NCBI GenBank assembly: GCA_963930775.1
Contig: OZ005696.1
Span: 186,001 to 250,000, forward strand
Reading direction: 5' to 3'
Length of the DNA stretch: 64,000 nucleotides
From: Cliona cf. orientalis
Lineage: Eukaryota; Porifera; Demospongiae; Clionaida; Clionaidae
Each line of letters begins with the position of its first letter. Within the stretch, counting starts at the first letter, position 1. The notes beneath the pieces are model-generated. The model did no database searches. It saw nothing but the letters and a program-made list of their open reading frames with translations, and had not been told where the DNA came from. This document shows positions 1 to 62,100 of this stretch, in pieces. The translations under genes and the position numbers were made by a program.

Positions 1-1211
1 GACTTACGCTCATTCAACTGTAGTTTTAACAATTATTACATACCATTATGTTGTGTTTGAGTGGAGGAAGGTGGTGTGTGTTGAGTGGGAGGCCGACTAG
101 CTGCACTGTTGCCGCCAGTTGGAGGTGTCACTCCGGCAGTGGCAGGTCCCTTCAACTTTCAAATTATTTGAGAAGAGTGATCTTTTTTGTATACTACGGC
201 TAGCTACTGCATACGTACTTGCCCAGCTCTTTCTTCAATCTCCTCCAGGAATCCAACTGAAAGCTCCAACTTATATTTACTATTTAATGCTGAAATATTG
301 TTCAAGAGCCGTTTCCCGTTTATCTTCGCTTCTACAAAAATAAACGGTAATTCGGTAATTTGGTGAGAGCAGTTAGTTGGTGACCAACAAGATTTAGTAG
401 AACTTACTGCAAAGCTTTTCAACATCATCACCATAATCAGCTCCATACTCCTGCCTTAGCCAGTGAGCTAGATCACTAGGGCCCAGCGATTCTGAGAAAT
501 CTACACAGTTCAGTTAGATCATAGACATCTATGGTTAGAGTACATGTACATGCACACCAGGGAACATACCAATGGCAGCTGTGGTGGTAGTGGTGGCGCT
601 GGCTGACTGAGCATGTGACACGGTGGTCGGTGTAGTGGAATCCACTCCCAGATCACCTGACACGGCACGTGTGCACAACATGAATGTACAGTATTAATCA
701 CATTTAATATGATAATGCCTTTAATACTTACATTACGATAATTTATTATGGTGCTTACCACTGTTGTCCTTGAACAGATCACAGACAAACTCAGCACAGT
801 CCACTTTACCAGCTTGGAAGAAGATTTGGATCAGAGCCCTGTACGTGGCTGCTTTTCCAAGACCTGATTTCCACCTGCTCAATGCCTCTCTCCTTCGCAC
901 ATATTATGCTACAAACTATCTCATCATAATAATAGGTTTATAGCAAAAAAATACCTTTGTAATTTTGGTTTATCTCGATATCTCTCGACAATATCGTTCC
1001 TGTCAGTGTCAGTCAGGCCAAGATGGTCCGCCACGACATCTTGCCGATCCAATATTACGTCAGCGATCCTACCTAGGTGTTTAGGTATTATTAGACCTCT
1101 GCCATCCCTGTGCTCGAAGTCGATCTCTTCATCCAGCTTCCATCGAACGGCTGCAGGGACGGTGGCTATGATATCCGATAAAGTGCGAGCGCGAGACATC
1201 TTCGCTGCCAC
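1..1211 (-). CDS. Death domain-SAM domain adaptor protein (3' part runs off the window)
   Basis: Six exons join in phase: 1211-955, 892-759, 656-570, 500-408, 331-219 and 149-44, with the last visible donor at 44, so the C-terminus lies outside. About 263 residues are visible. Exons 1-2 hold a Death-fold domain (roughly residues 40-128): a helix carrying ADHLGLTDTDRNDIVERY, then ALSRWKSGLGKAATYRAL, which matches the Death-domain pattern of a conserved Trp followed by ATY..L. A Ser/Thr-rich linker follows (exon 3), then a SAM-like domain in exons 4-5 (DLAHWLRQEYG, then KINGKRLLNNISAL). Exon 6 is Pro/Thr/Ser-rich. Such proteins act as cytosolic adaptors that oligomerise through both domains; partners here are unknown. 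The start is Met at 1211, with a second in-frame Met at 1199. The Death call is strong; the SAM call is moderate. Confidence 0.8.
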
Positions 1212-1267: not shown

Positions 1268-4200
1268 ATGGCTGAAACGAACAAGGAACTTTTTATCAGC
1301 TATGGCCGCGAGCCGGAAACGGTCAATTTCGTGAGGTTACTCAAACGTGACCTGGAAAAGAATGGGTAAGTTTCCGGCCTAGATTGTATTACAAGTAATA
1401 GTACAAGCACTTGAATGCTTGCTTGTACAAAAACCACAACACAATTGATTAGAATTTGCGCACATTCCCATCATAATCGTACGTATGTAGGCTGACAATA
1501 TGGCTGGATGCGGAGGACATCAGCGCTGGGTGTGACTGGTACAGCGCTATTGGTCAAGGCCTGGAGAACTGTAAGGGCATCATAGCTGTCATTACCAACA
1601 AGTACATCAACTCCCACTACTGCAAGAGCGAACTCTACACAGCAAACAACGACAAGAAGCACATCTTTCCGATTATCTTTGAGGACGTCGACTTCACCTC
1701 GAGTGCGGCAGCCAAGGGAGTGAAGTACATCATTTCTGGTATCAACTGGACAATGTTTCGGCCCGCCATTGATGATTATCACACCTCCCTTATCAGGCTC
1801 TGCCAGGGAATGAAGGAACAAGGTAAGCATAACTAAATCAATGATTTTTTTAAGCATGATTGACTGACTTGTCCCTCATATCCTTATCTGGATGAAGCTT
1901 ATGTTGACAAAAACGATGCCAGTCATCCATGCCCTATTTGGCCCATTGGTGGTAATAAGTATAACACACTGCATGCTTGTGGTTTTATTGGGTGTTGAGC
2001 CACATGTGGTTTGCTATCTTAATCACCCTCTCAATTAACTCCTTTGGCAGTCACTTACACCCTCTTCACAACTACTTCACCACTTGCAGGTCTAGGAGTG
2101 CCAGCTGAAGGGGGCGTGGCTGCTGAGACTACAGATGCTCTGGCCACTAAGAGTGAGTGTATAACAAATCAAACCTCCCATCTCAAAATTTCGCATAATA
2201 ATTTAAGGCTGGTTCATTATAATTGGCTCTTTATTGTACTTAAATTTCTCTCTGCATAGCTTATTCAACCAATTTTTTTGATAACTTGATCTATTAATTT
2301 TGTTTCAGTGGGTCACCTTAATGTATCTGGCAGTGATGATGCTCCACCCAGTGCCCCTCCCCCTCACCTGTCTCCCCACGGCCACGGTGGTGGATATCCT
2401 CAATCACCTTATCCTTCTTATCCACCTCCGGCTCCCTATCCTTCAAGCCCCACCCCTTATCCTCCTGGGCCACTCCCACCCTATCAGACCACGCCCCCTC
2501 ATCCTGGCTATCCCCAACACCCCTCTGCAGCGTACTATGGATATGCACAGCAGCAACCAAATTCGAATGGTTATCCTCAGGGCTACACTATGCCACCGAG
2601 CACGCAGTATCCTGGAATGTATGCTCCACCCACTTCAATGCCTCCAGCTCCGCCCACACAGCATCCTGGTATGTATACTCCGCCCACTGCCACGCCTCCA
2701 GCTCCACCCCCTCAGCCTCAGCCGACTGCGTACACAGAGTATACTGATGGCCCTCCAAAGTACTCTGACCTTTATCAAGGCCAACCGCCCCCTCCCGCAA
2801 GTGCTCCGCAGCAGACGACCTATCCACCCCCACCTGCCGAACCACTCCCAGAAAAACCTTCCAGTGAGTTATTATCAATCATAAAATTAATATTTTACAC
2901 CATATCTGATTCTAGTATGGTGTAAAAATACAATTGTGCCAAATATTTATGGTTAGCGAACATTGATTTTCTTTAGTTGCATCTGATTGTGGTGGTCCCT
3001 CTAAACCGACATTCAGTGTTGGGATGAAGCTGGAAGCTGTCGACCGGAGGTTCCCTTACTTCGTCTGTGTCGCTACCATCATGGACAGGAAAGGTGTTCA
3101 ATTATCAATCAATACCAGAGCCAAATCACACAATTTTATTTATTTTTTTTTTTTACGAAGTATCTCCTACTAATTGAAGTTTTTGTCATGCACACATTTT
3201 TATCTCCCAATTTCTACTATTTATTTCAGAGAGTGAAGTTTTGATCCACTTTGATGGCTGGAGCAGTGACTATGACTACTGGTGTCCACCTGACGCTGTG
3301 GAGCTCCACCCACCTGGCTGGTGCTATAGAAACAGCTGGGAACTGCAAACGCCTAGAGGTAGCTGCTGCATGTACATACCCCACTGCTACAGCACCAACA
3401 ATAACCTTTATCATGCAGGTCAGGAATGGCGTGGCTGGGACGAGTATGTATCACGTATGGAGGCTGACAAAGCTCCTGAACATCTCTTTACACCAGTAAT
3501 AAATAATAATTATAAGAATTTCACGAAAAAAAAACCAACTGAAATTACAGCTGATCATGCACTGAAAGCCTTTTGCCCCTTACAGGGTCAAGTGGCTGGG
3601 CCGGGCACTTTGTTATTCCGAGCAGGGATGAGTATTGAAGCCAAGGACAGGAAGAACCCAAGCCTGATATGTGCAGCCACCATCCAGCGCATTGGCGAGA
3701 GAGGCAAACTGCTCATCCATTTTGATGGGTGGAGTCAGAACTACGACTACTGGTGCAAGCCATCCACCCCTGACATACACCCTCCTATGTGGTGTGGCAA
3801 AAACAGCAGAAAAGTCACAGCACCAAATGGTAAATAAATTTCATCTATAGAGCATCAATTTTCTTAGAAGTTAGATGTCGAAATTTAATTAGTAGCCTGT
3901 AATAACAGTATTCCACAGTGTTTCAAAACCAGTTGCCGTTACTATTTCCAGGTTATATGGGGAACTTCAAATGGAGCGAGTATCTTGCTAGTCCAGGAAG
4001 GATCCCAGCTCCAGCCCACCTGTTCACACAGGTAGCAAAGCAAGATGAAAATCTATTAATTTTTTTAGCGATTATTAATAATCCTCCATTATTATCCAGG
4101 AGCAACTCTCAGCTAATGGTGATGGTAGGTCAGGTGCCTCAGGTCAAGGGTCAAGTGGAGCACAGCTGGGTAAATTTCAAGTTAGTATGAAGCTCGAGGC

Positions 4201-4628
4201 AAAGGATCGTCTGCACCCCACACTGGTTGCCGTGGCTACCATCATCGACATTCGAGACGAAAAACTACTGATCCATTTCGATGGGTGGACATCAAAGTAT
4301 GACTACTGGTGCAAGCCTACCTCCGCTGATATTCACCCTGTGGGCTGGTGTGCTCAGCATAACAAAGACCTACAACCTCCGAAAGGTAGCTAGTCTTTAG
4401 AGTACAGTTTAGTATTCTTCCAAGTATCTTAATTCCTCCCACTATGGATTTTTTAATCTTGGGGGAGGAAGGGGGGAGCTCACCTCAATTTGCCAGTCTA
4501 GAATTAAATTTTATCAATTTTGTCATTGTGTTACAGATATTGATGGTACATTTTCATGGACTAGTTATCTCCAGCAGAATGGCGCTAAAGCTGTACCCAC
4601 AGATGCATTTGTCAGCTCACAAAAATAA
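1268..4628 (+). CDS. TIR domain / proline-rich / triple MBT-repeat fusion protein
   Basis: Eleven exons join in phase to 690 residues: 1268-1365, 1491-1822, 2090-2152, 2309-2863, 2977-3093, 3230-3358, 3419-3495, 3586-3829, 3952-4031, 4100-4385 and 4537-4628. Residues 1-140 are a TIR domain (LFISYGRE, then TIWLDAEDI). Its SHYCKSELY motif places a Glu where SARM1-type TIR NADases have their catalytic Glu. Residues 165-350 are Pro/Tyr/Gln-rich (exon 4). Residues 350-660 hold three MBT cores, each with IHFDGW...YDYWC and a GWC or MWC end. Core 2 carries DRKNPSL, the Asp and Asn of the methyl-lysine cage in L3MBTL1 repeat 2, plus the cage Phe, Trp and Tyr. There is no signal peptide or membrane segment, so a nuclear or cytosolic site is likely. 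Methyl-lysine reading and NAD cleavage are inferred from the families. Confidence 0.9.
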
Positions 4629-5099
4629 CTATCGATCAATCTCAGACACAGTCTGTTATTTTTATTTCAGTGTGATATTATGTCTTCTAAGACATGAATT
4701 AGCAACACTTTTCTGTACTTGTCATTATACTATATTATTATACAGTGAAAAAAATTTAATATTTTTCAGAACGACAATTTTCTTATTATAGTCTGTATCC
4801 TAACCTGGAGGGCACAAAAGATGCGCTCTCAGAAGACTCACGGTTGGTCAGAATTGTTGTGCCGTGTGCACAAACGAGGTTGCCAGGGCCTAGGTAATGT
4901 AGGGTAATGTAGGGTAAAGCAGGTAATGTAGAGTGATATAAGATAAAGTATGAGGAGACTGCAGGGGCTGGCACCCCCTCCCCCCCCCCCCTTGTTAATA
5001 TTATTATTATTTTAATACATTTCCCATAATAATAATGATAGTACTTAATATTATTATCATTCAGGCTCGGTTGTGTCATGTGCAATATTGCTGAATGTT
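4629..5099. other. Spacer between convergent genes
   Basis: This 471-base stretch separates the stops of the TIR-MBT and FSIP2-like genes. It holds short GGTAATGTAG-type repeats near 4890-4940, related to the satellite at 13.8-14.35 kb, and a poly-C run near 4978-4990. I see no AATAAA close to either stop. Confidence 0.5.
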
Positions 5100-8000
5100 C
5101 TACACAGGGGGAGCAGCAGTTCTCTCCATGGCCTTTGCCATGGCTAGGCTGACAACGTCAGACGCTGTACTCTGCTCGGCAACGATCATCTCTGCTGCCA
5201 GCGAGTCACTATCCTTTCCCTCCTCTCCCTCTAGATCTGCAGCAATACCCTCAGAACTAGCACTTCTTTTTCCAACATTGACTGTATCCACATCACTAGC
5301 CTCCTCCTCCCCGCCTGTTTCAGTGATATTATCATTAGAACCAGTCTGTGGTTCATCTTCTTCGTTCAGTGTCCGCTGCATGTGGTTAAATGACTGCTCC
5401 ACGCCATCACTAATCTCAAGTTGCTTCACATTGCTGTCTTGGTCACAGCTCAAGCTGGTCAGGCTGTCCTCTGCATCAACGACCTTGATGGTAGCTTCCT
5501 CCTTGTTTCGCTGCTGTTGGAGGTCATATGAGTCTGTGTGCTCAATACCATCCACTGATTCAGTAGCTAGGTCTGGTTCCAGCTCCTCAGATTCCCATTC
5601 TGGATTCTCAAATTCTGATTCCAATTCCTCTTCCTCTTCTTCTGTCAGTAAATCCTGCATATACAGTCATAGAACCACAGTCATGCTGAAATTCTTTAAT
5701 AAAATTAATCCAATGAGGAACTAGCTGCATCCATTTATGAGTGACTATTAGTATAATTATGGCAGTTTTAATAATAATTATTGTGTTTAGCACCTCAAGA
5801 ATGTGAACGGTTGGTGTTGTATCAAATCTGACGTTATTCCCACTCAATGGCCCTTTCTGAGTCAACCTCTTCACTTCCCTGTTGTGGGCAGGTGAAGGTT
5901 GGTACCACTTCTTAACGTCAGCGCTCATCTTCTTAGTGCGGCTCATGGAGGTGTGCAGCTGGGGGGCGTTGGGGTGACTCAGCAGCTCCTCAATGTGCTT
6001 CTCATGCTCTTTCCTCCTATAATGTGGCACGTATAATTCAGTAATGATGACATCATACTATTCAAATGTACAGTATATTAATATAGGCCACTGTGTAATT
6101 ATTTTGTTTCAGGGTCCATTAATAACGGTAATCATGCAGCCAGAATACATAATAATTATTATAGGAACTCTGTTTGTACCATGCTTCCTTCTTGTGCTCC
6201 AGGTGGTGCTGCCAGTGCTGGATCTTCTTTTGTGTCTTTTCCTTCCATTCCTCCATCTCGCACACCTTCTTCTTGTGCCACTGTTTCTCCAGTTTGTCTG
6301 CCTCTTGCTTCAGCTCCTCCACCTGCTGGTGGTTCTCCTCCATGACCCTCTGATGACGCTCTAGTTGTGATCGATACTCTCTCTAATAAATTCTAGAAAG
6401 AGATTCATTGAGCCTGTAGCTATATACCTTCTTCTCTTTGCTGTAGTATTTGAAATAGTTTCTCTCTTCTTCTCATCCTCTTTTCCCTCTCTTCCTTCTC
6501 TTCAGCTTTTCTCATCTTCTCTTCCTCCTTGGCCTTCTGAGCATGCTCTTCATATAATTGCCACCGACGTTCAACCTAAAATTTAGTAACAAAAGCGTAG
6601 CACCGACACTGCATGTTAAATGTCTGGCCGGCTGCGGAGTGGACTCACCTCTTTGAGGTGATTGAGTCTATCATCTTGCTTCATCTTGGCTAGGTAAATC
6701 CTTCTCATGCTGTCCTCTACCTCGTTCTGTTTCAAGAGGCTCTTTCGACGAAGCATTTCCTGAAATTACTTGGGAAGTGAACATCTATCCCATGCAAGAT
6801 ATATTATACTGTATAGCCGGAAATATTGGCGGTAATTAAATTTGGCGGTTGAGCCCAAAATCACTATTGCAAGAATATTGGCGGATTTAAATTTGGCGGT
6901 TCGGCACAGGATCACCATACGTATAATATATATGTGAGTAGGAAATTTTGGTGGATTTTAATTTGGCGGTTGTAATAATAATAATAATTATTATAGACCG
7001 CCAAATTTAATTCCCCTCCAAATTTTCCGGTTATACGGTAGTCTCTCTAGCTTATCAGAGATTGGAATTGAGAATTTAATAATAATACCGTAACCCACTT
7101 CATGTTCTTTTTGCAGCTGTTGCAGTTTCCTCTTCTCCCTCTCTGCCTCTTGCTTGACTTCATTCTTTTCTCTTTGCATCTTTCGTTCTTCTAGTACTTT
7201 CTTCTTGCTAATCTCTTCTTTTTTCTCTCTTCTTTTCAAGAGAAGCTGCTTGTGCCTCAACTTTTTCTCTTGCTGTCGAAAGAAAGCTTTTCTCCTTTCC
7301 TCTCTCTCCTTGTCCATGGCACTCGTTCGACTCTGCTCTCTAACATCACTCTTGTGCTAAAACATAAAATATAATAATATTGCTTAGTGTGCAATATCTG
7401 CTTAGTCTGCGTAATGGTTATAATATTATTCAGTCTGATTTGCCTTTCTATCTCGCTCCTTGATTTCGTCCTCTTGCTGTTTGCGAAGCTTCATAAACTC
7501 AAAATCCAGGAAGTTACGGTAAGCATTGTACTCCTTCAGGGAGTGGCAAATCACATGAAGATCACTGGTAATGTACCTATGCCGGAAATCACAACACAGA
7601 GAAACTGTAATAATAATATTGCTTTCTAGCCACTCAGATGTCCCTAAAGGACAGCCCTTCTTCCCATCAGGGCCTACCCCCCAGATTTTCATGTAATAGT
7701 GTGATAATTGTTATGCTAAAAAAACAGAGAGCCTATATGACTAATATCTAGACTACCCTTATTTTTCGGTTCTAATAATGAGACTGCTATGCGTACCCAT
7801 TTTGAAAGAGTTTCTCCTTCATGGCCTTGCGATGATAGTAGGACCTCAGGTGGGGGTCGTGTAGACTGTTGTACTCCAGAAACTGGTAGTATTCTTGTGA
7901 ATTGGACAAGTCGAACACGTGTCCGGTGTAAGACTTCCGCCTCTGTTCAATGATTGAATCCACAGATTTATCGGATTTAATCCACGAGAAAGTAGTTTTA

Positions 8001-14698: not shown

Positions 14699-17600
14699 CT
14701 ATTCTGCTAATGTAGTAATGAGTTGTTCTAGTTGCATGATGACCCCATCCATTATCGGCCTGTCGCTAGGCACCATAGAGAGGCACTTCTCAATAACAGT
14801 ATAAACAAGAGGAGACTCCATTTTGGCTTTCTCCATTATCCCAGCGAGGCCGCCACTGTGGTCCGAAGGGAAACAGCTGGTGATCACCTCACAAAGAAGC
14901 ACTCCATAGCTGTACACATCTGCAGAAGGGGACTGAGGTTGATGAGCTTCCGTGCGCATCTCAGGGGCAGAATAGACAAGAGCGCCTTCACCAGGAGTGG
15001 TCGCAAAGCGGACAAGATTTGCCGAGCCGAAATCGGATAATTTTGCTCTCCACTGCTTATGGGCGAGTTCTTCGAGCAAGACGTTAGAACTGCTGATGTC
15101 TCGGTGGATGATGGGTGTATGCTGAAGGTGTAGGTAGTTGAGAGCCAATGCCACGTCCTGCATTATCCATAACTTCTCCAAATTGGAAGTAACGATTTCT
15201 TCCCGATATGCACGTCTAAGAGTATAGCTGAGCAGCTCAGTGACTATCATCGGTCCAGTGGGGGCATCAAGAACAGCTGCAATGAAGAGGACGAGATTTG
15301 GGTGTCGAAGTTCAGCCATGATGCTAATCTCCCTTTGAATCTGACTCTTGGAGAATTGTGATAGAATGTTCTTGTGCAGGCACTTGACTGCAACAACTTT
15401 GCCACGGAATGTCCCCGTCATGACATAGCCCCAGGCTCCCGTGCCAACCATGTTTTGAGTTAGTTTGATTTCCTCATAACTCACGACATCCTTGTCACAT
15501 ATTTGGGGTTCACTCTGCTGAAGGCTTTCTTGGACCTGTTTTTGTAACTCTTGGATCTTTCTCAATAGATCCTCTCTCTCTTTGGTAAGTTGATCAACAG
15601 TGGAGGATCTCTCTATTAAGTCAGTCTCGAGCTTTTCAGTCATTTTCCCTGTTTTTTCCTTCATCTGTGAAAGTTGTTGTTGCAATTGCTTCACACTGAA
15701 TTGCAATGCCACCTTTTCCCCAGTGATTTGACTGACAACACATGTCTTTTCCATCAGCTCAGCCTCAAGTTGAACACTCAGTTTGAGCCTCTCTGCTTCA
15801 GCTTCTATCCTTGCTCTCAGCTTCTCTGCATCTTCCTGCTCACATTTCAGCTGCTCCTGAAGCTCTTGTATCTCTATCTTCATCTCTTCTTCCCTCCCTT
15901 CTTGTATCTTGATTGTGCAAAGAACATCATCTAATTTTTCCTTTATGTTATTTCTCTCGGCCATCAGTTCACTGTAGGCCACTGCTGAAGTAGATGCTTC
16001 ATTTTCCTTCTCTTTCAATTTCTCTGTCAATTCCTGGACCCTCTCTTGAAGCTGGTGTTCCTCTACCTCCGTGATGGATGGTTGCTGTAGATCTGTGGTG
16101 TTTGAATTCTCCAAAGTTTCCAGTACCTTCTTTAGCTCTTTCTCTAACTTATCTCTCTCCTCCCGTATCTCCCTCACTACACTTTCCGGCACCATACTGC
16201 TCTGTTCTGCATTGATTATAGACTCTGTCGAGAACTGGAACATGTTTTGATAATCTTCATCTGATGTCCCCTCAGTCGTTAGCTCCCCGCTTAGCTGACC
16301 CTCGACGAAAGCCCCTTCCGATAACGTGTATTTTTCATCACCTTCAAGCTGCTTTTCCAATGCAACGGATTGATCTGCTGGTAGTTGCTGGCCCACAGCC
16401 GTAGATCCTTGGAGCTGTTGTAAAGTGCGATCCATTTGCAACTGTAGTTGTTCCTTCTCTTCATAGAGCTGTTGTTCCATTAGTGAAGTCTGGCTGATTT
16501 GAGCCATGAATGAATTGAACAGTTCATCCTTCTCTTTCTCGATCTCCATGGCTTTGTTTGTAGCTAGAGCAAGCTTCTCTTCTGCAGCCATTAATTTTTG
16601 TTTTAACTCCTCCATCGCTTCATTCTCTCCATCCCTTCTCTCATTACCTAACTGCACATCATCATTCTCTGAACTTCCCCCAAAATCATTGACGTCTTGT
16701 TTCTGCTCCACTTCTCTTTGCTGCTGTTCTAGTTCCTCGCTCATCTCTTTGAGCTCTCTCCTTAGTGACTCACTGACGACCTGCTCCTTGGCATAATTGG
16801 TCTCGGCTGCTTCGAATTTCCCCTGAACCGTGCTCAGTTGATTTTTCAACTTCTCCATTCCACTTCTCATTTCGTGCATCTTCTTCTTGGCATGCTGTAG
16901 CTCGCTCATGGTAGCTACCACCCTCTGTTCATAGTCCTCCTTATCCACTCTCACTATTCCTATCTCCTCTCTCACCTATAAAAGTTTAATACTATCTTAT
17001 ATTGCACATTCAATGTCTAGTTGATAAAATAGTCCCCAGATACCTTCACAGCTCTAAAATTTAATAATAATTTTGCTTATAGCATACCTGTGTTATCTCC
17101 GTTACCATGGCGTCCAGTCGTTGTTTGTACTTTTCTTTCAGCTGCCTCTCTGTGACGATCTGCTGTTGCATCTCTTGCTGCATGGCATCGATCAATCCGC
17201 TAGTAAAGCTGCCTCTCTGAGCTAGCGTCTTGCTCTGTTCCATCTCCTTAATGTGAGCCTTCTCTATCTCCAGCGATTTATTAGCCGCTATCAAGCTGGA
17301 TTTTAGCATGTTGATTTCAACCTTTTTGTCCTCAATTTCTTTCCTTATCATCTTCAACTCTTCTACATGGCTGCACTGATCCTTGCAATTTTCCTTCTTG
17401 GGGGAATATGTCAATCCCCCCGGAGTCTGGGGGGCATGGCTTTGTCCCATGGAGACGACTCGGGGTAGAGTGGATGAGCTGGTTCTTGGGATGAGGGGGG
17501 TCTTTCTCACTGTGTAGACTGGGCATTGCTGTGAGAACTTGAATCTTACAACTTGAACAAGGGTTGTCAAGTCAGAGCGACCCTATAGCAGTATAATATA

Positions 17601-59186: not shown

Positions 59187-62100
59187 ATGAGAAAGTATAG
59201 TCCTGCTGGTCCATCTGAAGACCCTAAAATTGAACCAGGTACATGTATATATGTCGGTAGGGTAATGGTTATATAAAACAAATTTTGACCAATTCTCTGC
59301 TATATTATAGAAAAATGTCCCAAAGTATTCATTAGCTTCAGTAGGAGAAAAGTGTTTGGTGACTCACCAGATGCATACACTGAAGCCAAGGGCCTCTATG
59401 ACGAGTTAGAGGCCCAAGGATGTAAACCTTGGATGGACGAAAAAGGGCTTGAGTTTGGAGATGTTCTGGCTAAGGAGATATTCTGGGCGATTAAACAGTG
59501 TGATTTTATCATCCCCATCATGACCGGTGGCTATGCTACCTCCCTCTGGTGCCTCAGGGAACTATACTATGCTGCACTGCAAACAGACTCCAAGCCGAAA
59601 ACGATCATTCCAATGCTGTTGGAAGATGAGGATATTATCGACAACCAAAAGGCGGGCAAGTGGCTATTGAGAATTGGAACAGGACAAAAGTACTTCAGAA
59701 AAGAGGAAAAGGCTGATATGATCAAATCTTTGAAAGATAAGGTACTTCCTACTCTATATCCATACATGAATTAGAGTGTGATAAGCTTGGTAGGTGTAAG
59801 AGTCAAGGGATAATCGATTCAGGGAATGGTTACAGGATTTTTTTGCTCTGCTATAAAATTTTGTCAAGGGCTTATAGACTCCTGTAAGCCATGCCCTACG
59901 CAATAACATTTTTGTGGTTTGGTAAGACCCTACAAGAGCTAGTAGCATGATAAGCTAGCACAAAGAAGTCATTGTTCTTAGGCTCCTGGCAGCCTTATCA
60001 AATCATTTTTGCCACAAATGCTTTCTATGTGTGCAGTGTGGATTTAACCTATCACGCAAATTTTTTTATCCTGTGTTAAGATTGCATAGAGGATATGGCG
60101 ACCTTTACCACATTGCCAAATATTTTTTCTGTGAATTTTTTCTGCAATCCAAAAGTAGCTGGGCTTGGCAAAATTTTTATCCAGCGAAAAATTTCACGTA
60201 TAATATGGTAATTATTTACTGCTCTATAATTATCCCGCAAGGGAATAAAGTAATCGGTTATGTCATTGTCGTTGTTAGCACGAAAATTGCCATATCTTGA
60301 GGTGTAGGCATCTATGCAACTCGTAAGCACAACGAATCAATCAAATTTTGGCGAAAAACTTTATGTGTGCTTCAAATCAGGCTGACATCATTGTACAACT
60401 AAGCAGCATTTCCACTATTTTTCTTAAATTCACAATTAAATTTTTAGCCATGCACACGAAATAGATTACACAATGTGTACACGGGGTATGTGCTCTACAG
60501 AGCTCTAATTATAGTCTGAGGATATTTTCTGTGCATAATTCGTGTATGCATGTCGATTTGGCATACACTGAAGCCAGTTTTTCACCAAATTCGATTGATT
60601 CGTTGTGCTTACAAGTTGCTTAGAGGCCTACATCTCAAGATGGCGATTTTTATGCTCACGACGACAACAACGACGACGACACGACCCATTACTTTACCCC
60701 TTGCGCATGCACACAGGGTAAAAATCCGAAGGGCAATATTGTAGACTAGGATGTGTAGATTCTTATGAATACCCTATCATGATGCTAGCAAGGGTGCTTG
60801 TTCTCCGGATTTTGGCTTTAATGACATTATAGTGCACGTACGAGATCGGCTATGCCCTCCATAGTGATGGTGGGCGTGGTTAATTAGCAAGCAACTTTGA
60901 TGTGGTAAGAGATGAACAATCATAGCATATCAGAGACATGAAACAAACTCCATATTATGAAGTTTGTTTCATGTCTCTGATATGCTCACAAGTGGAGATC
61001 TATGGCCTTGTATAGTCGGTGCTTTTTCTTCGTGTATAGTCAGTGCTTTTTCTTCGTTGTATTGACACTCACATTTTTAATTTTAATTTTGCATATTAGT
61101 TAAAGGAGAACTCTAGTGCACCTGCCCCTGTCCCCACACCACCTACCAATGATAATCCCAGCCTAACCCAAACAGAAGCTACGATGGTGAGTAGTTTTAG
61201 GGGAAAAAAACTGTATTATCACATTAATCCTGCACATATTATTGTACAGCATATTCCTTTTTGTACCACTGCTGATTTGGATGAAGAAGACATGCGCTCA
61301 GGCACTGTTGAGCCTGATGAAGCCATGGAGACTGATGAGGGCCATGCCTATGGCGATGTCTTAGCAGCATGGGTGCCAAAGAATGTTCTTTGGGGTAATC
61401 ATAAGAAGGAGCTTACAGTGAAGTTCCTGAATAACATTCTACCTCAGTGGACCTATGGTGGGAGTGGAATGAACGTGGGGAACATCATGAGCTGGGCCAA
61501 TGAGTGGTATCTTCGAGGAGGTGGTACTATTCCGAAATTCACTTGGGTGGAAGGGCCAAGTGCTCCCTCTGATATTCGCATCGAGTTCAACAGTAAGTAA
61601 CACGAGCTACGTATCTAATTTGAGTCAAATGTGAATATTTTATTAACCTTATAGGTAATAGGAGGACGGAAACGATGATTGGTAAGAGGGCAACCAAAGA
61701 AAAGTACGACCAACCAACAATGTGGCTGGATCTGAATGTATCGGGTGACAACTACAAGAAGCACTTAGTAATCCACGAGTTTGGCCATGCCCTCGGTCTA
61801 GGGCACGAACACCAGCGCTCTGACTTCTGGAAGCTCATCAAGCCTTATGTTGACATTGAAGAGATGAAGAAGGATCTGAAAGTAACTACTAAAGGCTTTG
61901 AAGTCAACTGGGACAGTGACTCGCAGTTCAAGACAGGCAAATGCACTGCCTATGATCCCTATAGCATCATGCACTATTGGTAAGATATTCCCAGCATGGG
62001 TGCATGATAGCGCTAGCCTGGAATTAATATGACCATCGAATGCAATAGGTTCAAGAAGCAATGGCTGAAGAGCGGATACAGTGATCAGAGTAAAGTGGAA

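Follow-up and report, generated by a model that had tools for sequence, protein, structure and literature searches.

A gene at positions 1268-4628 (plus strand) of a 64,000-nucleotide stretch of DNA from the sponge Cliona cf. orientalis is best read as a single gene encoding a TIR domain, a Pro-rich linker and three MBT repeats in one protein. The stretch, hereafter the window, covers positions 186,001 to 250,000 of contig OZ005696.1 (assembly GCA_963930775.1), or C8:186001-250000 in the genome as searched (216.8 Mb, 149 contigs). From its sequence, we hold this reading to be highly probable. The preliminary description of the window had claimed eleven in-frame exons that end in a stop and give 690 residues, with a TIR domain, a Pro-rich hinge and three MBT cores. 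Both claims were borne out: in the model rebuilt from the DNA, the frame is kept throughout the 11 exons, all ten introns are GT-AG, the coding sequence of 2073 nt yields 690 residues plus a stop, and Pfam recovers both domain types (TIR_2, 3e-19; MBT, 3.7e-77). The exons are listed in the table.

The start codon at 1268 lies in a good context (AACATGG) and is preceded, 18 nt upstream, by an in-frame TAG at 1250. The three introns that join the TIR part to the MBT part all have strong donors and are all in phase 1; this phase is found at the end of exon 2 and at the starts of exons 3, 4 and 5, so that exons 3 and 4 are symmetric (1-1). Donors of the form GTRAG[TC] occur only four times in the 3,361-base span, and these are the donors of introns 1-4, each on a proposed junction. 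With a background of 0.72 per kb on the same strand and 1.22 on the other, their number is not above chance, and it is their placement on the junctions that counts. No AATAAA or ATTAAA was found between the TIR and MBT halves (1823-2976). Three-base periodicity is present in exon 3 (ratio 3.39, at most 2 of 500 shuffles being as strong) and in exon 4 (16.54), given a shuffle mean of about 1; introns 3 and 4 have no such signal (1.38 and 0.55).

Several observations weigh against this model. AATAAA and ATTAAA are also missing from 4629-5100 but occur three times within the MBT part, which makes this signal a weak guide here. Periodicity proves little, because intron 2 has it as well (3.70, equalled by at most 2 of 500 shuffles), with a lesser signal in introns 1 and 6 (2.36 and 3.03), and because it is weak or absent in exon 1 and most MBT exons. 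The signal of exon 4 could be caused by its Pro-rich composition. In its C-rich stretch, each of the three plus-strand frames stays open over a long distance, and the open frame of exon 4 is therefore weak evidence alone. Finally, read-through into intron 2 would produce a TIR-only protein ending at TAA 1834-1836. As a separate observation, introns 6 (3359-3418) and 7 (3496-3585) are 60 and 90 nt long, multiples of three without in-frame stops; retention of one or the other would add 20 or 30 residues in frame.

Table. Exons of the TIR-MBT gene and the divergent neighbouring gene (positions in the window).
Feature	Position	Strand	Content
Exon 1	1268..1365	+	Start ATG and first part of TIR domain, residues 1-33; donor TGG|GTAAGT
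Exon 2	1491..1822	+	Remainder of TIR domain, residues 33-144; ends in phase 1
Exon 3	2090..2152	+	Short linker exon, phase 1-1; donor at 2152 AGA|GTGAGT
Exon 4	2309..2863	+	Pro/Tyr/Gly-rich linker, phase 1-1; one PPxY and one PSAP motif; donor CCA|GTGAGT
Exon 5	2977..3093	+	First half of MBT core A, without preceding arm
Exon 6	3230..3358	+	Second half of MBT core A
Exon 7	3419..3495	+	MBT arm after core A; weak match, 1.7 bits
Exon 8	3586..3829	+	MBT core B; full pocket D478, N481, C486, F503, W506, Y510
Exon 9	3952..4031	+	MBT arm after core B; 14.2 bits
Exon 10	4100..4385	+	MBT core C; pocket D601, H604, A609, F625, W628, Y632
Exon 11	4537..4628	+	C-terminal MBT arm, 18.6 bits; stop codon
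Death-domain gene, divergent	757..1199; two exons shown, 1199-954 and 900-757	-	Pfam Death 3.5e-05, 24.3 bits (cut-off 22.6), on joined exons

The TIR_2 match (PF13676) spans residues 9-123 with 70.1 bits (cut-off 28); the TIR family (PF01582) also matches (6.2e-6, 26.5 bits, cut-off 21.3), and a Tlr3_TMD match falls below its cut-off (17 bits vs 25). Searched against PDB sequences, the TIR domain alone retrieves AbTIR (7uwg, 1.2e-4), and a profile of the ten-member TIR family of this genome retrieves 52 distinct sequences at E <=0.001. The fold was judged by proxy, from a predicted model of paralogue C4 (57% identical over 146 residues; predicted local distance difference test score, pLDDT, 84.4). 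Its top PDB matches are TIR domains, and two of the 50 matches listed are 2-deoxyribosyltransferases. Glu80 (in YCKSEL; codon 1630..1632, plus strand) is invariant in all 20 aligned TIR domains of the genome and aligns with the Glu of the AbTIR YEL motif and with that of plant Roq1. We take Glu80 to occupy the catalytic glutamate position known from NAD-cleaving TIR domains, for example those of AbTIR and SARM1. Against an enzymatic reading, the conserved Glu is present in scaffold TIR domains too. The protein thus shares with SARM1 and the bacterial and plant TIR NADases the TIR fold (in the C4 model) and a glutamate after a Cys-x-x motif; it differs in that no ARM, SAM or NB-LRR was called, and the identity of these NADases to the C4 model is about 16-22%. 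A SARM1-type ARM or SAM before the TIR domain, which starts at residue 9, gave no Pfam match.

The three MBT stretches (PF02820) together score 255 bits (cut-off 22). An MSL3_chromo-like match (1.1e-9) has its best stretch within core A, and among PDB sequences the MBT part matches L3MBTL1 (1.6e-77). Pocket residues were defined from PMC2747274. The pocket Asp is found in all three cores (372, 478 and 601), as is the Phe/Trp/Tyr triad (396/399/403, 503/506/510 and 625/628/632). The gatekeeper column holds a small residue in each of them (C380, C486 and A609); in L3MBTL1 repeats 1, 2 and 3 it holds Phe, Cys and Arg, and the bulky Phe and Arg are made responsible for non-binding of repeats 1 and 3 (PMC2747274). 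The pocket of MBTD1 is described there as Phe, Trp, Tyr and Asp, with Leu508. Judging by Glu80 and the three pockets, both halves of the protein appear to retain the residues expected of working domains.

Three points argue against binding by every core. Firstly, the Asn-like pocket position is Phe375 in core A, Asn481 in core B and His604 in core C, so that it is kept only in core B, which makes core B the safest predicted binder. Secondly, L3MBTL1 repeat 3 still did not bind after an Arg to Cys change of its gatekeeper (PMC2747274); the small-gatekeeper signature is hence necessary at best. Thirdly, known MBT proteins are described as binding through one repeat only (PMC10889763).

In MBT proteins, each arm rests against the core of the repeat before it (PMC2747274). 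A hidden Markov model of the arm places three arms in the sponge protein, each after its core, and the repeat unit is therefore core then arm, three times over. The exon layout, with arms in exons 7, 9 and 11, matches this plan. The idea that the Pro-rich exon conceals an N-terminal arm was rejected, since the arm model gives the linker ahead of core A -2.9 bits and 58 of 200 shuffles do equally well. As a further point against a working array, the usual first arm seems to be missing, and propeller closure may hence be in doubt. The AlphaFold model of core C (pLDDT 44.5) is unusable.

L3MBTL1 and L3MBTL3 likewise have three MBT cores, and the sponge cores are 49-57% identical to their repeat 2, with the same pocket residues. 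Their order is arm-core, whereas that of the sponge protein is core-arm, with an N-terminal TIR domain added; and while repeat 2 alone binds in L3MBTL1, the predicted pocket and small gatekeeper occur in all three sponge cores. Among human repeats, each core is closest to L3MBTL1 repeat 2, core B being level with L3MBTL3 repeat 2. The three cores cluster with each other (81/88), and one-to-one inheritance of the repeat order from L3MBTL has no support. Origin from a four-MBT ancestor by loss of arm 1 and core 4 is our guess.

All three Pfam MBT matches in the genome belong to the TIR-MBT gene. A protein search of the genome (E <=10) gave nine matches, seven of them in this gene and two elsewhere on the minus strand (E 0.43 and 1.36). 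A 25-residue MBT stretch at L071 (C1:22296943-22297080, minus strand) stays below the cut-off (12.6 bits vs 22; E 0.16), and the minus-strand frames of L072 have no MBT match in Pfam. Outside the TIR-MBT gene no match above cut-off was thus found in the genome, which is a lower bound because the search was exon-wise; the chromodomain, used as control, gave 21 matches. Other animals have several MBT genes. The single gene above cut-off reflects either loss or the limits of exon-wise search. In the GTDB and IMG/VR contigs, none of nine and none of one pattern matches to the MBT part were confirmed, a result uninformative on orthologues because neither collection is meant to hold animals.

The closest TIR domains found are those of nine paralogues in the same genome (41-60% identical). 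Downstream of six of them, on the same strand, lie other Pfam domains, namely NHL (two), Death (three, one of them with a kinase) and B-box-filamin-NHL (one). These genes resemble the TIR-MBT gene in that TIR comes first and another domain after; they differ in a partner other than MBT and in having one intron fewer in the TIR. In the two TIR-NHL genes, a phase-1 intron near the corresponding point of the TIR would permit in-frame splicing, and the TIR exons of paralogues C4 and C9 share the end phase of exon 2 and stop at nearly the same point. Because paralogues have other partner domains nearby, in two of them with possible phase-1 splicing, the TIR-MBT gene looks like one product of TIR shuffling. 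We consider it likely that the gene arose by coupling an L3MBTL-like MBT array to a TIR exon from a local family that has been re-used repeatedly.

The shuffling argument is weakened by the three paralogues without a Pfam partner, and by the fact that the in-frame link was checked in two of the nine; elsewhere the partner is merely near, on the same strand. The phase-1 TIR end is not common to all paralogues, candidate donors near that end being in phase 2 in C13, in phase 0 in C17 and mixed in others. A sister relation of this TIR to those of the two TIR-NHL paralogues is not rejected (approximately unbiased test, p 0.408) and has no support. A SAM tail on paralogue C17 was not significant. 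Outside the sponge, one of 40 pattern matches to the TIR family was confirmed in GTDB (a Ruminococcus metagenome-assembled genome, L075; 33%, 7e-16) and none of ten in IMG/VR viral contigs.

Other TIR loci deserve mention in their own right. At L036 (C13:8355969-8359355, minus strand), a TIR frame is followed by a B-box, filamin, NHL frame, an arrangement like that of TRIM2/3 with TIR replacing RING. At L035 (C11:1130622-1134008, minus strand), three frames stand in a row (TIR, Death and protein kinase), and a Death-like frame starts on the opposite strand; if spliced together, the row would unite MyD88-like and IRAK/RIPK-like parts in one gene. Within the window, a TIR frame at 59289-59774 (plus strand) belongs to a different, much expanded subfamily with many similar copies along contig C8. 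An astacin-like metalloprotease frame (61624-61983, plus strand; PF01400, 9.3e-9) follows after 1.85 kb, and the two frames possibly belong to a TIR-metalloprotease gene.

The preliminary description had further stated that no described TIR-MBT protein was known to its author and that an NAD-cleaving or self-assembling domain tethered to chromatin would be a new type of system. Published reports contradict the first claim and temper the second: Trichoplax has TIR_2 with GTPase and MBT domains (PMC5094078), its ROC-COR proteins include MBT and TIR among their domains according to a Figure 1 legend (PMC4104024), and Aplysia LOC101848126 is a putative Toll-like receptor with ROC, COR and an MBT region (PMC9334734). 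With such ROCO-type proteins in print, the pairing of TIR and MBT is not entirely novel in kind. They share with the sponge protein the presence of TIR and MBT in one invertebrate protein. However, they add ROC/COR or a related GTPase, whereas the sponge protein has above cut-off only TIR, MBT and the MSL3_chromo-like match; ROC and COR gave no Pfam match in its 690 residues up to E 1. The bare TIR-linker-MBT architecture was not found in the literature searched, supplementary tables lying outside its scope. MBT is absent from the main text of a paper on placozoan immunity (PMC6321704). In the parts used, sponge TIR is reported with Ig, MBT being unmentioned (PMC8242945), or with Ig or Death (PMC12909245), and many TIR combinations are reported for amphioxus, again with MBT unmentioned (PMC2575513). 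MyD88 and sponge IgTIR are likewise animal TIR proteins of innate immunity, whereas the 690-residue protein has no Pfam match to Death or Ig; Death sits in the neighbouring divergent gene. As far as searched, the two-part protein appears to be a novel short form among shuffled invertebrate TIR proteins.

That Death-domain gene lies head to head with the TIR-MBT gene, the two ATG codons being 68 bases apart. A divergent Death-like frame also adjoins the TIR gene at C11:1132k; it matches the Death gene over 45 residues (31%, E 0.009), a similarity too weak for calling a conserved pair. Farther along the window (14699-16975, minus strand), a long frame ends in a protein kinase domain (PF00069, 4.1e-34) preceded by a Glu/Lys/Gln-rich, coiled-coil-like part.

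Domains, pocket residues and Glu80 are observed; from them we infer binding, clustering and output as follows. The MBT part would act as sensor and localiser, docking on mono- or dimethyl-lysine, possibly with more than one core since all three keep a pocket. Docking would raise the local density of TIR domains, and the flexible linker would let TIR domains on neighbouring marks meet. Once concentrated, the TIR domains, as the output, might assemble with one another, after which they would cleave NAD+ or bring in other TIR or Death proteins. We regard this docking and concentration as plausible, at somewhat less than even odds. The whole explanation, that is, a shuffled TIR-linker-MBT gene whose methyl-lysine docking clusters TIR output, seems to us evenly balanced between right and wrong.

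Docking would take place either on chromatin or on some methylated protein of the cytoplasm. Non-histone proteins methylated by SET7 are read by L3MBTL3, and the named targets of SET7 include RelA and STAT3 (PMC10889763). Because MBT proteins read non-histone methyl-lysine as well, the 'nuclear danger sensor' first suggested for this gene is one option among several. Against a nuclear place, no basic nuclear localization motif (run of three K/R, or K[KR]x[KR]) was found in the 690 residues. One alternative goes further and leaves chromatin out: the MBT array would read a methylated cytoplasmic immune protein (e.g. NF-kappaB/Rel or STAT), with TIR scaffolding MyD88-like or Death partners. The SET7 targets, the missing nuclear motif, the adjacent Death gene and the three paralogues with downstream Death would all suit it. 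Nevertheless, no partner is known, and among the best structural relatives of the C4 model there are both NADases and scaffolds, which means that the fold does not favour a scaffold role. We rate this alternative as unlikely, although it deserves attention.

A bolder version of methyl-lysine docking would be a trivalent, methyl-lysine-gated TIR enzyme. Each of the three cores would hold methyl-lysine. Wherever methyl marks were dense (on chromatin, or on foreign or damaged DNA-bound histones), they would cluster TIR domains and cause local NAD+ cleavage. With its core-arm order, the array would then be a permuted or doubly truncated version of the MBT ring, and the TIR family would represent interchangeable outputs with swapped sensors. 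We think this improbable.

Decidedly improbable, in our view, is a transcriptional MBT repressor without immune role, in which a captured non-catalytic TIR is a mere oligomerisation domain. SAM domains in Scm or L3MBTL play a comparable role. TIR domains do self-associate (PMC8635717), and as the sole MBT gene above cut-off found in the genome, this gene may carry general MBT functions; yet Glu80 is retained, and the TIR family is otherwise seen beside domains characteristic of immune signalling (Death, kinase and NHL/B-box). Least probable of all is that TIR and MBT are mainly separate proteins (TIR-only by retention of intron 2, an MBT form from the Pro-rich exon) with the full-length form rare or an artefact: although read-through ends within the first 14 bases of intron 2, exon 4 holds in-frame ATGs, anthozoan TIR-only proteins are known (PMC5094078) and splicing may be permissive, as introns 6 and 7 lack in-frame stops, the span's strong donors include exactly those of the joining introns, exons 3 and 4 have coding-like periodicity, the TIR-plus-partner plan recurs in paralogues, and neither AATAAA nor ATTAAA separates the halves (nor, as said, follows the gene).

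Taken together, if the TIR-MBT protein is expressed and our inferences about its working are right, a TIR immune or cell-death output would be positioned or activated directly by lysine methylation, a link for which we found no example among animal TIR proteins in the literature searched. Methylation of proteins or histones would thereby be tied directly, and testably, to innate immunity, and the three intact predicted MBT pockets make multivalent reading directly testable. The paralogues also make the genome of this sponge well suited to following how TIR modules swap partners, which in at least three genes involves phase-1 introns.
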